Of a stretch of 64,000 bases of DNA, positions 1-55,990 are shown in pieces. The notes beneath the pieces were generated by a model, which saw only the letters and a list, made by a program, of their open reading frames with translations, searched no databases and was not told the DNA's origin. Numbering within the stretch: the stretch's first letter is position 1; the number at the start of each line of letters is the position of its first letter. A program made the position numbers and the translations under genes. Origin of the DNA: a bacterium (GTDB taxonomy: Bacteria; Elusimicrobiota; Elusimicrobia; UBA1565; UBA9628); NCBI GenBank assembly GCA_021822495.1, contig JAKAQO010000003.1:124001-188000 (forward strand), in the 5' to 3' direction.

Positions 1-188
1 TCGCACCATTGATCCATTCCCTGATTCTGGAATTGATTGCCGAAAGTAATCCGGTCGACCGTCGCCGGATTATACTTTGAATAGCCTCCTGCGGGATCGG
101 CAGGAACCCAGCCGGAAGCGGAAGAGTCCGCATAAACAGAAGGAGAAATGAGCATTCCCCCCCAAAAAAGCCAGATTAATAATTTCAT
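1..188 (-). CDS. Exported protein, N-terminal fragment (runs off the window)
   Basis: The leftward frame opens with ATG at 188-186 and stays open to the window edge (62 codons). The start reads MKLLIWLFWGGMLISPSVYA followed by DSSASG, a clear Sec signal peptide with cleavage after VYA. The ATG overlaps the TGA of the exported kinase gene as ATGA, so the two are probably translationally coupled and share one exported-protein operon. The rest of the protein lies outside the window. The mature part seen is Gly/Asn/Gln rich and suggests no family. Confidence 0.75.
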   Translation of the reverse strand, partial: MKLLIWLFWGGMLISPSVYADSSASGWVPADPAGGYSKYNPATVDRITFGNQFQNQGMDQWC

Positions 189-1252
189 TTGGATAAGAAT
201 AAGGAAATTTTATTATCTTCCTCACGGCGCGCCAAGGCTAATTGATATTTTGCGCCTGCGGCATTGAGAAGCTTGTTGCAATCTTGAATTAAGTCCTCAA
301 TATCAACAAATGGACTGGCAAAAAGACTTCTTGCCGCTAAAAGCCCGGCGTCAATGATATAGGCCTGCGGTTCGGGGTTTGAGGCCGTATATCCCACCAT
401 GACATTGCTGGGAGTCAAATCCATAATTGAAAAATGACTGTTCAAAAATTGATTCAACATTTCACGCAAGAGCTTTAAGTCTTGAATCCCAAATTCTTTC
501 TGCCTGATTTTCGCTTCCAGAGTCTCTCCATGGACTCGCTCGGAGACGATGTAGGGAATTCCCTGAATCAGTCTGGTATCCACGGGATGAGGCGCAAGCC
601 CCAATTTGGACAATTTTTCAAGGTTTTGAAACTCTGGGTGTTCGTAAAACGCGACATTCCCATAAATTCTGCTGCCGTGGATGATTTTAACCACCCAATC
701 CGAGTTATTCGGGTGTTCAAAAACCCGTCCAAACGAACCTTCTCCCATCAGACGCGCTTTTTTTCCGGAAAGCCACAGGGCTCCCTCGGAATCATATTTC
801 CAAGTCTGCGCCTGTCCGTCAAATAAAGCGTTTCCATTAACTTTTGGACTATCCGCGATTTGGGATTTAGAAGAGGGAGTATCCTGAAGATTCAGCAAAG
901 AATGGTCCGCGGAAACAACATACGGAAGAGAAACTCCTGAGATACGGGCGGATTGAGTCTGGCGTTTTGGGGAACTAACTTTTGCGGCTTTCTGGGTAAA
1001 GGCCTCGCTTGGAAAATGAATTTCCGGCCTCAAAACCTGGTTTTGAAAATCAGGATTTTTTTCTAAGTCCTGATCCAAAAACTGAGAGGTCGTCGGCGCA
1101 ACTTCGGGGGAAGGAAGATTAAAATTAAAAGAAGGGGATTCCGATGGAATGCGCTCGGATGACTCAATAGCCCACAGCGAACGGCCCATTCCCAAAGCGG
1201 CCGCCAGCGCCCAGAAGCCTAAATTACGGATTAATTTCCGCAAAAATATCAC
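185..1252 (-). CDS. Exported protein kinase-like protein
   Basis: A 355-aa protein beginning with GTG. Residues 1-29 form a signal peptide (hydrophobic run then SLWAIE), 30-140 a Pro/Ser-rich linker, and 160-355 a protein-kinase-like fold. Visible motifs are a glycine loop GEGSFGRV (170-177), a candidate beta-3 lysine in VVKII (189), a hinge-like SERVHG, a catalytic-loop equivalent MDLTPSNVMV (D278, N283) and a DFG equivalent IDAG (D301). The HRD histidine is replaced by I/M and the C-lobe is short, as in Kdo/aminoglycoside-type small-molecule kinases. Sec export is odd because ATP is absent from the periplasm; the protein may be membrane-retained or a pseudokinase. The GTG start is supported by a TATAAT 6 nt upstream and by the shared promoter module. 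Function unknown. Confidence 0.75.
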   Translation of the reverse strand: MIFLRKLIRNLGFWALAAALGMGRSLWAIESSERIPSESPSFNFNLPSPEVAPTTSQFLDQDLEKNPDFQNQVLRPEIHFPSEAFTQKAAKVSSPKRQTQSARISGVSLPYVVSADHSLLNLQDTPSSKSQIADSPKVNGNALFDGQAQTWKYDSEGALWLSGKKARLMGEGSFGRVFEHPNNSDWVVKIIHGSRIYGNVAFYEHPEFQNLEKLSKLGLAPHPVDTRLIQGIPYIVSERVHGETLEAKIRQKEFGIQDLKLLREMLNQFLNSHFSIMDLTPSNVMVGYTASNPEPQAYIIDAGLLAARSLFASPFVDIEDLIQDCNKLLNAAGAKYQLALARREEDNKISLFLSK

Positions 1253-1258
1253 AATTAA

Positions 1259-1325
1259 ATTATAAAGGAAATTACTTTTTTAGGCTTGGGCCTAAAGGCC
1301 CATGAAGGCCTCGGCAAAGGGCCTA
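1259..1325 (-). promoter_or_regulatory. Tandem-palindrome promoter module of the exported kinase gene
   Basis: On the coding strand a weak palindrome TAGGCCCTTTGCC lies about 24 bp (centre to centre) before a strong one, TGGGCCTTTAGGCCCA (1302-1287). Twenty-two nt further is a perfect TATAAT (1264-1259), then 6 nt, then the GTG. The same arrangement with the same spacing precedes two other exported-protein genes (14858-14926, 51074-51141). The palindromes sit at and upstream of the -35 position, so a DNA-binding activator site is likelier than an RNA element. Confidence 0.7.
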
Positions 1326-13891: not shown

Positions 13892-14851
13892 TTAAGCCGA
13901 GAGATTACGGGGAGCGACGCGACCGCTATAATTAACTTTTTCGCCCGTCAGGCGAAAATAATTCCCAAAAACTTTTTTCACATAATCAATGGTCTCATGA
14001 AAGCGCGGAATCAACCCATAGCGAAAAGACTTTCTCCCCTCTCCGCTGTTGTAGGCGGCCACCATCAAAACCTTGTCATTATTAAACTTCTGTTTTAAAA
14101 ATCTCAAGTAGCGGATCATCCCCGCGATATTTTGCCTCGGGTCAAAGGGATTTGCAACTCCAAAGCGGCGCGCCGTGGCGGGCATGAGTTGACCAAGCCC
14201 CATCGCCCCTGTCCTTGAAACCGCATAACGGTTGCCCCCGCTTTCCTGCTTGACCATCGCCAAGGCCAAGTTAGGATCGACGGAATATTTTCTCGCGTAG
14301 CGATCAATCAAGCCGCGAATATAACTGGGAACTTTAAGAGCATAAGATTTAGCTTGTCCCCATCTTGAGGCGAACTCATTATCTATCCAGCTTCTATGAC
14401 TCAGACGCTTATTTGAAAGCATTGGCCGCTCCAAGGGAGGCGGAACATCAAAACGAGGGGTTTTAACCGCTGGCAAAATTTTATTAGAAGGAAACTTCCC
14501 GCGAGAAATGGGGAGAGATTGAGCCGCGAAAACCCCATAAACTCTTGGGAAATAGGCATGAGATTCTTCCCGATTAGACGCGCCCGAATTAAAAATGTTC
14601 TTTTTCTTTAAATTCGCGAGTTTCTCTTTCACGCAATCAAAATGGCTGTTTTTCTCCGTCTCCTGGCATTCTTTAAACCCTTCCAAATTGTCTTTTTGAT
14701 TTAAGTTCTTTTTTGGGGCAGAGATGGAAGCCTTTAAAGAGGCCGAACGCGCCGCGGGAATTGCGGGGCTAGAAGGAATCACCGCTCCCAACTGCGCATG
14801 CGCCGAGGAAGCTCCCAGAGCGAGAAGAAACGTCGCTATCATTTCCTTCAT
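13892..14851 (-). CDS. Exported lytic transglycosylase (SLT domain)
   Basis: A 319-aa periplasmic murein hydrolase. Signal peptide MKEMIATFLLALGASSAHA, a poorly conserved linker to about residue 190, then an SLT domain: DPNLALAMVKQESGGNRYA (catalytic Glu in QESG), GAMGLGQLMPATA, NIAGMIRYLRFL and VAAYNSGEGR. It cleaves the MurNAc-GlcNAc bond. The ATG at 14851 is preferred to a TTG two codons upstream because it fits the fixed 34-nt spacing of the shared promoter module. It is convergent with yraN with only 15 bp between. Confidence 0.92.
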   Translation of the reverse strand: MKEMIATFLLALGASSAHAQLGAVIPSSPAIPAARSASLKASISAPKKNLNQKDNLEGFKECQETEKNSHFDCVKEKLANLKKKNIFNSGASNREESHAYFPRVYGVFAAQSLPISRGKFPSNKILPAVKTPRFDVPPPLERPMLSNKRLSHRSWIDNEFASRWGQAKSYALKVPSYIRGLIDRYARKYSVDPNLALAMVKQESGGNRYAVSRTGAMGLGQLMPATARRFGVANPFDPRQNIAGMIRYLRFLKQKFNNDKVLMVAAYNSGEGRKSFRYGLIPRFHETIDYVKKVFGNYFRLTGEKVNYSGRVAPRNLSA

Positions 14852-14857
14852 ATCCAA

Positions 14858-14926
14858 AGGGTAAGTGAAAAGCCGCTCTCGCGCCTGGGCCTAAGGTCCC
14901 AGATAAATACTAGGCCTTTAGTCCCA
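14858..14926 (-). promoter_or_regulatory. Tandem-palindrome promoter module of the transglycosylase gene
   Basis: Coding strand: imperfect palindrome GGGACTAAAGGCCTA (14925-14911), then TGGGACCTTAGGCCCA (14901-14886), 22 nt, a -10-like TACCCT (14863-14858), 6 nt, ATG at 14851. The palindrome-to-start distance of 34 nt is identical to the exported kinase and LOG genes. The element also abuts the stop of the upstream GYF-like gene. Confidence 0.65.
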
Positions 14927-51073: not shown

Positions 51074-51141
51074 ATAGGCCTTTTGCCGGAGCTTTTCTAG
51101 GCCTTTTGGCCCAGGCGACTTTTCACCGTTCGCATTATCCT
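51074..51141 (+). promoter_or_regulatory. Tandem-palindrome promoter module of the exported LOG gene
   Basis: TAGGCCTTTTGCC (51075-51087), then TAGGCCTTTTGGCCCA (51098-51113), 22 nt, -10-like TATCCT (51136-51141), 6 nt, ATG at 51148. Spacing equals that at the kinase and transglycosylase genes (34 nt from the second palindrome to the start codon). It lies in the 153-bp gap between divergent ctaC and the LOG gene, so it could also affect the oxidase operon. Confidence 0.7.
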
Positions 51142-51147
51142 AATATC

Positions 51148-52377
51148 ATGAAAACACAAACACATCTTCCATCTAAAATTTGGGCGTTTTTCATCGTCAC
51201 GTTTCTGGCTACGCCCCGCGTTTGGGCCCTGCCGGAAGCCTCTCAGACCCGAGACGCCACGGATGAAATCGCGCCGGTGACTATCCCGCTCATAATTCCG
51301 CAAGATTCATTGACTCTTCCAGACCCATCCATTAATAACACCGAGCTCTTAGAAGATTCAATTTCCCCCTCTGAAAGGGAACTGTCCAGAACCTTGCCTG
51401 TCATTGAAACAAAGCAAAAATCCATCAAAACCGGCGCCAATCAAACGCTCCGGCAAACGAAAGATGGGAAAACTCCTTTTGGCCCAAGCCTTCCCGTTCA
51501 GACCGGACAAACCCTCAAAAAGTCCGAAAAAGAAGTCGCAAAGACCCTCGCGCCATTCGCCCATTCCTTAAAAGAGTCAAACGCCCTGGGGGCCCTTTCT
51601 CGTTTGATGGACGGCGCAAAAACCTTTCCGGTCGCGGATATCGGCGAAGGCGAAAGATTCGCCCGCGAGATTGAGGATGCTCCAAAGGAAATCAATAAAC
51701 AAGGAGTCGCCGCTTCCATCACCGTTTTCGGCAGCGCGCGTCTTCTTCCTCAAACAAAAGCCCGAGACGCGCACAAAAAAGCGTTAGCCCTCGCGCGATT
51801 AAACCCTGACGACAAAAACGTCCAGGAAGCGCTAAAGCTCGCTCGTCAAAATTTACAGATGTCTAAATATTATGAGGAAGCCTACCGGTTCGGCCAAATC
51901 GTCGCCCAAAAAAGCGGTGGAAAAATCGCGGTTGCCACCGGAGGCGGCCCCGGCATCATGGAGGCGGCCAACCGCGGAGCCTACGAGGCCGGCGGAATTT
52001 CCATCGGACACACCATACGCCTTCCCCATGAAGAGGCGTCCAACCCCTACATCAGCCACGGCCTTAATTTTCTCTACGATGATTTTGCCCCAAGAAAAAT
52101 GAATCTCCGGCGCGGCGCGGTGGCCCTCGCGTTTTTCCCCGGCGGTTTTGGAACGATGGATGAACTTTTTGAAACCTTGACCTTGATCCAGACCGGCAAA
52201 ATTCCGCGCGTTCCCATCGTTCTGGTGGGCAAGAAATATTGGAAACAGATTCTCAACTTCGAGAATTTTTCAAAAATGGGAGTCATCTCGCCCAAAGACC
52301 TTTCTCTTTTTAAAATTGTTGATACGGCGGACGAGGCCTGGGCCGCTTTGACCGCTGAAGAAAACGTTGCCCAATAA
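51148..52377 (+). CDS. Exported LOG-family protein (cytokinin-riboside phosphoribohydrolase-like)
   Basis: A 409-aa protein. Signal peptide to about residue 28 (ATPRVWA), a long Ser/Thr/Lys-rich linker (30-185), then a LOG/TIGR00730 domain: SITVFGSARLLPQT, GGGPGIMEAANRGAYEAGG (265-283) and FPGGFGTMDELFETLTL (catalytic PGGxGTxxE, 331-339). LOG enzymes release the base from nucleoside 5'-monophosphates and are normally cytosolic and about 180-250 aa. Sec export is unusual and suggests extracytoplasmic nucleotide salvage; the next three genes are nucleoside salvage enzymes. The start is fixed by the promoter-module spacing. Confidence 0.82.
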   Translation: MKTQTHLPSKIWAFFIVTFLATPRVWALPEASQTRDATDEIAPVTIPLIIPQDSLTLPDPSINNTELLEDSISPSERELSRTLPVIETKQKSIKTGANQTLRQTKDGKTPFGPSLPVQTGQTLKKSEKEVAKTLAPFAHSLKESNALGALSRLMDGAKTFPVADIGEGERFAREIEDAPKEINKQGVAASITVFGSARLLPQTKARDAHKKALALARLNPDDKNVQEALKLARQNLQMSKYYEEAYRFGQIVAQKSGGKIAVATGGGPGIMEAANRGAYEAGGISIGHTIRLPHEEASNPYISHGLNFLYDDFAPRKMNLRRGAVALAFFPGGFGTMDELFETLTLIQTGKIPRVPIVLVGKKYWKQILNFENFSKMGVISPKDLSLFKIVDTADEAWAALTAEENVAQ

Positions 52378-55279: not shown

Positions 55280-55990
55280 TTAAGAAGCGGAAGAAGCCAA
55301 GCGGCGCAATTCGTCTTCTTTTAGAATCTTGATATTTTTCTCCGCGCGCTTAATGAGGCCTTTGAGCTCAAGTTCATGAAGGGTACGAACCGAGGTTTCT
55401 AAAGTGAGCCCCGCCAACTCCGCCAGATCTTTTCTTTTAATGTTGATGAGAATCGGATAGGATTTCCCTTGAGGGCGGGCAGTTCTTAGAAGGGTATCGG
55501 CAATGCGGGCCTTGGCGGATTTAAAGGCGATGTCGCGGGCTTTGTTTTCTCCGCGGCGAACGTCCCGGGATAATTCTCTTAAAAGGGCGCGCGTCGCATC
55601 CGGAAACTGCGCCAAGAAGTCAAAAAAGTTTTTTGAGTCTATCATCGAAATGACGCTGGACTCTAACGTCTCGGCAGTGCCGGTATAGGGGCCGTCATCA
55701 GCCAGCAAAGTGATATGCCCCAACAAATCTCCGGCCAACTCAATTCGAGCGATAAGCTGCTGTCCGCTTCGAGTGGATTTATAAACCTTGGCGCTTCCCT
55801 TACAGATGACATAAAGCCCCGGCGCGGGAGCTCCCTCATGGAAAACGACCTCGCCGGATTTAAACGGGGCGGCAACTCGCATTTCTCGCCAGGCCTTTTT
55901 GGCCTCGGCGTCCCCCAAGAAATTATAAAAACAGGTTTTCTTGTGCGGACACCAATCGCAGTTCGGCGCTTCGCTCTTTAAAAATGCCAT
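55280..55990 (-). CDS. Crp/Fnr-family transcription regulator
   Basis: A 236-aa regulator: a cyclic-nucleotide-binding-type beta roll (about 35-125), dimer helix and winged HTH with KRKDLAELAGLTLETSVRTLHEL (about 185-215). The N-terminus has CDWCPHKKTC (Cys 11, 14, 20), like the FNR cluster-binding set, and a further Cys63 (VICKGS), so an oxygen-sensing [4Fe-4S] cluster is plausible. It could control the oxidase, but no FNR box was confirmed. Convergent with upp. Confidence 0.88.
   Translation of the reverse strand: MAFLKSEAPNCDWCPHKKTCFYNFLGDAEAKKAWREMRVAAPFKSGEVVFHEGAPAPGLYVICKGSAKVYKSTRSGQQLIARIELAGDLLGHITLLADDGPYTGTAETLESSVISMIDSKNFFDFLAQFPDATRALLRELSRDVRRGENKARDIAFKSAKARIADTLLRTARPQGKSYPILINIKRKDLAELAGLTLETSVRTLHELELKGLIKRAEKNIKILKEDELRRLASSAS

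Follow-up and report, generated by a model that had tools for sequence, protein, structure and literature searches.

What kind of element could stand, with the same internal distances, ahead of three separate genes for exported proteins in one stretch of bacterial DNA? The question is raised by a 64,000-nucleotide (nt) region of the 2.2-Mb Elusimicrobiota genome G000 (G000:C6:124001-188000; hereafter the window), where each of these genes is preceded by two 16-bp boxes of palindromic character and a hexamer resembling a -10 promoter element. We found that this module recurs across the genome with a fixed geometry, is spread through several families of one class, and precedes genes that are enriched in signal peptides. 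It is very probably a promoter of activator type that serves a regulon of exported proteins, and we consider it fairly likely that the fuller statement also holds, namely that of an activator-dependent promoter whose exported-protein regulon is conserved through the class and whose activator is a protein of orthologous group A.

In the standard layout an upstream box, either of the form TAGGTCYTTTGCCGGA or an inverted box, is followed 23-25 bp downstream by a proximal box, TRGGHCYTTNGRCCCW, and then, after 22-23 nt, by a -10 element TANNNT, often with a start codon 6 nt further on. Pattern and profile searches together with curated stretches around the sites, on which the module counts rest, gave about 45 modules to which a plausible first gene could be assigned. 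The box itself, with up to two mismatches allowed, has 113 forward plus reverse matches in the genome compared with 44 for the reversed pattern, and a profile of the full module has 39 matches at E<=0.01 and 65 at E<=10. Of the 45 curated sites, 25 have TAnnnT beginning at offset 22 and 7 have it at offset 23, as opposed to 0-2 sites for each of the remaining offsets between 0 and 26; ATG stands exactly at +34 in 14. The sequence logo of these sites is nearly flat beyond the box and -10 positions and contains no conserved -35 hexamer. A sequence-only reading of the window had proposed a functional regulatory element on the basis of three copies; the fixed offsets of the -10 element and start codon in dozens of copies show that placement is not random and, with the genome-wide recurrence, support the proposal. 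Its suggestion of a promoter coupled to the start codon applies to about half of the targets: judged by eye, some 21 of the 45 sites appear leaderless, with the start codon 6-9 nt past the -10 element, whereas most of the remainder start behind a leader that contains a Shine-Dalgarno-like site. At one MFS-like target (C6:80409, L085) an AAGGAG Shine-Dalgarno sequence is followed by ATTAAAAAAATA, where the expected start has no ATG; an ATT start is possible.

The first of the three modules in the window lies on the reverse strand, where the upstream box TAGGCCCTTTGCCGAG (1310-1325), a form common to many copies, is located 23 bp upstream of the proximal box TGGGCCTTTAGGCCCA (1287-1302; found in pattern searches and curated sites), and TATAAT (1259-1264) follows 22 nt past that box and 6 nt ahead of a GTG. 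Target gene 1 (185-1252, reverse strand) encodes an exported protein with a signal peptide and a kinase-like YrbL-PhoP_reg domain (PF10707, E 7e-9), and its GTG start at 1252 would also be the transcription start, making the gene leaderless. In the second module the upstream box TAGGCCTTTAGTCCCA (14911-14926) is on the forward strand, inverted relative to target gene 2, while the proximal box TGGGACCTTAGGCCCA (14886-14901; likewise from pattern searches and curated sites) and the -10 element TACCCT (14858-14863), which begins 22 nt past it, are on the reverse strand. Target gene 2 (13892-14851, reverse strand) encodes an exported lytic transglycosylase with an SLT domain (PF01464, E 5.6e-25) and the N-terminus MKEMIATFLLALGASSAHAQ; its ATG at 14851 is exactly 34 nt past the proximal box. 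The third module is on the forward strand and comprises the upstream box TAGGCCTTTTGCCGGA (51075-51090; curated sites), the proximal box TAGGCCTTTTGGCCCA (51098-51113), which is the top-scoring copy in the genome at 44.2 bits, and TATCCT (51136-51141), again beginning 22 nt past the box. Target gene 3 (51148-52377, forward strand), with a predicted leaderless ATG at 51148, encodes an exported protein with a LOG / lysine-decarboxylase-like domain (PF03641, E 1.1e-27).

The 34-nt distance from box to start that had been claimed for the three genes is exact to GTG 1252, ATG 14851 and ATG 51148, and the three hexamers are correctly placed at 6 nt before the start. The description of the boxes as paired palindromes was right in coordinates and spacing, but the upstream box is the poorer palindrome, has its own TAGGTCYTTTGCCGGA form and is sometimes inverted. 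Loose matches to the box (up to three mismatches, window only) number 19 compared with 9.8 expected, and 1 of 100 shuffles scored as high; since this exceeds chance only mildly, the case rests on the three exact, well-placed copies and on the whole genome. In the window, the 3' end of a tRNA-Leu, GACTCCCTCCGCCGGCAA, recurs about 120 bp downstream (1462-1479 and 1585-1602), like an integration site or a tRNA remnant.

By eye, a Sec signal peptide is present in about 40 of the 45 first genes. A crude predictor, which overlooks obvious cases, found one in 34 of the 45 targets as compared with 21 of 64 window genes scored more liberally (p=4e-6). The earlier idea of a regulon of Sec-exported proteins is thus sustained as an enrichment, but a few targets lack a signal peptide, and several genes in the window that encode one are without a module; the regulon therefore covers only part of the exportome. 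Targets without a signal peptide are a PAS-GGDEF protein (C5:76942), a lone receiver (C6:70662) and a 60-aa protein (C14:84060), and an IspA-like membrane protein (C15:27998) was also counted as an exception. Domains recognized among the targets include SLT, FtsH-like AAA plus M41, M48/HtpX-like, PLD, M1, S8, trypsin plus Rce1-like, GH15, PQ-loop, MFS, ankyrin, pentapeptide and LOG. Many targets have no Pfam family, and an NCBIfam scan of ten of them yielded essentially only HtpX, for one.

Many targets with unrelated catalytic domains (C4:57324, C4:157576, C4:385431, C15:185320, C14:681, C15:138643, C6:175098 and others in G000) share an N-terminal extension past the signal peptide, at about residues 25-180, with weak similarity across families (E 1e-5 to 5e-5) and a recurrent (L/F)FDG near residues 120-180; it is possibly a sorting or surface-assembly domain. 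The peptide KGTVPF recurs within several exported proteins (C4:259561, C5:26976 and C14:90556), apparently because a dispersed GGGGACTGTCCCC-type repeat has been inserted into coding regions and is translated there. The 60-aa protein mentioned above (L092) belongs to a conserved family of 59-60 aa that follows the module in three species of the genus (L102 and L105 being the other two); it lacks a signal peptide and ends in ..RQMTxGSxDxLxESYHWVVKRxTCLIEK.

Genomes of the same genus carry about 30 module copies each. A model that includes the -10 element has matches in 149 of the 340 genomes of the phylum, and a strict pattern, consisting of the proximal box with TANNNT 21-23 nt later, matched 188 of the 340 with 4 control matches in total. 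The module thus recurs in the genome and in most relatives of one class, nearly always ahead of exported-protein genes. The genomes with strict matches fall into nine families of one class (f1-f5, f10, f11, f12 and f14), and the pattern was absent from six other families of the same class and from all 105 genomes outside it. Two Elusimicrobium records, and two further sequences that probably match by chance, were all that a strict contig scan in direct orientation returned. Both records are metagenome-assembled genomes of uncultured rumen Elusimicrobium; one, L111, has an exact module with TACAAT ahead of a leaderless signal-peptide gene, and the other is L108. Genome G133, which we take to be E. 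minutum Pei191, has signal-peptide-like N-termini behind 18 of 21 sites examined by eye, and nearly all of ten targets tested there have no Pfam family. E. minutum, a gut symbiont available in culture, thus probably falls within the range of the module, and the regulon can be tested there. In these relatives, G133 among them, most upstream boxes are inverted, which fits a dimer binding a near-palindrome.

If transcription starts 6-7 nt past the -10 element, the boxes are centred near -42 and -66, with no -35 box and a normal -10 element. Centres near -42 and -66 without a -35 box are the geometry of a class II activator. The claim that the boxes lie upstream of the transcription start and bind an activator is accordingly favoured by the position of the -10 element, the lack of RNA features and an upstream box that can be flipped. 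Paired palindromes able to fold, and the leaders of some targets, might instead suggest that the boxes are transcribed and act as RNA (riboswitch, thermometer or attenuator). We rejected such an element as very improbable, because a TANNNT fixed 22-23 nt downstream would put the boxes outside the transcript, an Rfam scan matched only tRNAs, RNAalifold gave no pair with compensatory changes, and an RNA would not tolerate the flipped upstream box seen in many copies. Somewhat less remote, and still improbable, is that a repressor of exported-protein genes uses the boxes as its operators. Repressors often bind palindromic sites close to promoters, and in G007 a box adjoins the -10 element of the group A gene; the standard module, however, has both boxes upstream of the -10 element at activator positions, and with no conserved -35 hexamer the promoter would be weak unaided, which argues against repression. 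That a dispersed repeat or mobile element copied the module around can practically be dismissed. There are dozens of copies, and the adjacent paralogues C15:59466/C15:60491 and C15:243830/C15:244587 have long similar upstream regions, but the logo is nearly flat beyond the box and -10 element, and copies stand at promoter positions and are kept across families with very different flanks.

Which protein would be the activator? GerE (PF00196) proteins are present in all 17 genomes tested, and in three of these (G003, G052 and G095) there is just one, a member of group A. The group A protein of G000 (G000:C4:82821-83564) has the NarL/FixJ organization, with a receiver (conserved DD, and D in LMDIKLP) and a C-terminal GerE helix-turn-helix. 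The copy in G133 is at G133:C1:1292625-1293290. The recognition helix SVKT[IV]KNHLN is conserved in the group, and invariant or nearly so in A4. The best PDB relatives are VraR and LiaR, with a full-length alignment to VraR 4gvp at E 8.3e-45. Each of the nine module-bearing families has group A matches at E<1e-100, and a search for the group gave no match in f6, f13 and f15. Boxes with at least 14 of 15 matches lie upstream of the group A gene in G005, G006 and G007, a level that 1.7% of random stretches reach, which suggests autoregulation in these genomes; for G000 autoregulation was rejected, as no box lies upstream. Because group A supplies the single GerE protein of three module-bearing genomes and matches the module in its families, and because the box has a core in common with the CesR/LiaR box, we lean towards this VraR/LiaR-like NarL/FixJ response regulator as the common regulator.

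CRP/FNR proteins would fit the geometry and have three members in the genus, but they were rejected as the common regulator: in module-rich g37 genomes (16-24 module matches) all that a search for them returned were weak matches to LexA-, ArsR- and other non-CRP proteins. One CRP/FNR-family gene, conserved in the genus and encoding an N-terminal cysteine cluster CDWCPHKKTC, is located in the window at 55280-55990 (reverse strand), 3 kb from target gene 3; it is not the common regulator of the module.

Several observations weigh against group A. The survey of transcription factors covered two families, PF13545 and PF00196. Weaker relatives (E 1e-51 to 1e-84) occur in the module-less families f7, f8 and f9, as well as in one genome outside the class. 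The strict pattern is missing from some genomes that have group A (e.g. G012, G018 and G022 of genus g9), and a few fragmentary module-bearing genomes have no group A match. Co-occurrence is confounded by descent, both being clade-restricted. The box deviates from the CesR motif at positions 2, 3, 14 and 15, the E. minutum kinase is not LiaS-like, and in several families, including genomes of f12, group A adjoins Tad-pilus-like genes that might be its true target. The same promoter and regulon could then be served by an activator of another family (e.g. Fis/HTH_8-type, or an uncharacterised clade-specific one), with group A controlling, for instance, Tad pili. We regard this as the less likely alternative, since the box core is identical to the CesR/LiaR core, VraR and LiaR are the closest solved relatives of group A, the family distributions of group A and the module match, and boxes precede the group A gene in three genera.

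With group A as the preferred activator, the module would function as an activator-dependent promoter of sigma-70 type. A dimeric activator would occupy the two tandem boxes near -42 and -66, stand in for the missing -35 contact and recruit RNA polymerase to the TANNNT -10 element, and transcription would start at or near the start codon, or 30-70 nt upstream of it where a Shine-Dalgarno site is present. Such a regulon would comprise about 45 genes here, almost all for Sec-exported or cell-surface proteins, and would have been kept through much of the class of Elusimicrobium. The group A gene lies downstream of a sensor kinase and a receiver-kinase hybrid in E. minutum, G095, G069, G052 and others, the E. 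minutum operon encoding a dCache-HAMP-HisKA kinase and a receiver-HisKA hybrid; in G000 it is not adjacent to a kinase. Given this arrangement, an external signal would arrive by phosphorelay, from the dCache-HAMP sensor kinase through the receiver-kinase hybrid to group A and on to the exported-protein genes.

The module has the look of a master switch for exported proteins that has gone undescribed. A search of the literature on Elusimicrobia promoters and regulons, with most subscription journals not covered, found nothing on it. A promoter activated by a response regulator is of a known kind; what is new, as far as can be tested, is a regulon of exported proteins that spans a class and has a rigid two-box, leaderless promoter. 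Regulation in Elusimicrobiota appears little studied, and the class gains a large predicted regulon whose promoter grammar can be read from sequence alone, together with specific candidates for regulator and sensor pathway; co-regulated exported proteins of unknown function can be sought on this basis. More speculatively, one phosphorelay and this promoter may have run the exported and surface proteome throughout the diversification of the class; since many targets in this genus belong to ordinary enzyme families (FtsH, LOG, M48, MFS, PQ-loop) but have an additional exported N-terminal extension, the regulon may be the sign of a sorting or surface-assembly route not yet described.

In comparison with known systems, the module resembles class II activator promoters of the CRP, LuxR and NarL types in an operator near -42 overlapping the -35 position and a consensus-like -10 element. 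It differs from them in that CRP/FNR is absent from module-rich genomes and the start codon is coupled to the -10 element in about half of the copies. A published mark of leaderless bacterial genes is a TA-like signal some 12 bp ahead of the start codon (PMC3160421), and TANNNT is found at that distance here; in this case it is bound to a specific operator and one functional gene class, so that leaderless expression is linked to one regulon and not to housekeeping genes. The closest likeness is to the LiaR/CesR/VraR systems of envelope stress in Firmicutes, which share the 16-bp inverted repeat with the core GHCT-nn-AGDC, a NarL/FixJ regulator with VraR and LiaR as best solved relatives, and an extracytoplasmic theme. 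Compared with the CesR/LiaR box TCAGHCTnnAGDCTGA (PMC4447274), TRGGHCYTTNGRCCCW has the core GHCY-nn-NGDC and the outer T/A in common, while the outer arm is TRGG here and TCAG there. VraR uses two sites (R1 and R2) in the vraSR promoter (PMC6612188), as the module has two boxes. In place of a LiaS-like kinase or LiaF partner, neither of which was identified beside group A in the E. minutum operon or the G000 neighbourhood, E. minutum has the dCache-HAMP-HisKA kinase and receiver-kinase hybrid. Unlike those systems, the module combines a rigid 23-25 bp spacing of two boxes with a fixed -10 distance at dozens of genes, and its targets are mostly exported proteins, many of them outside any known family.
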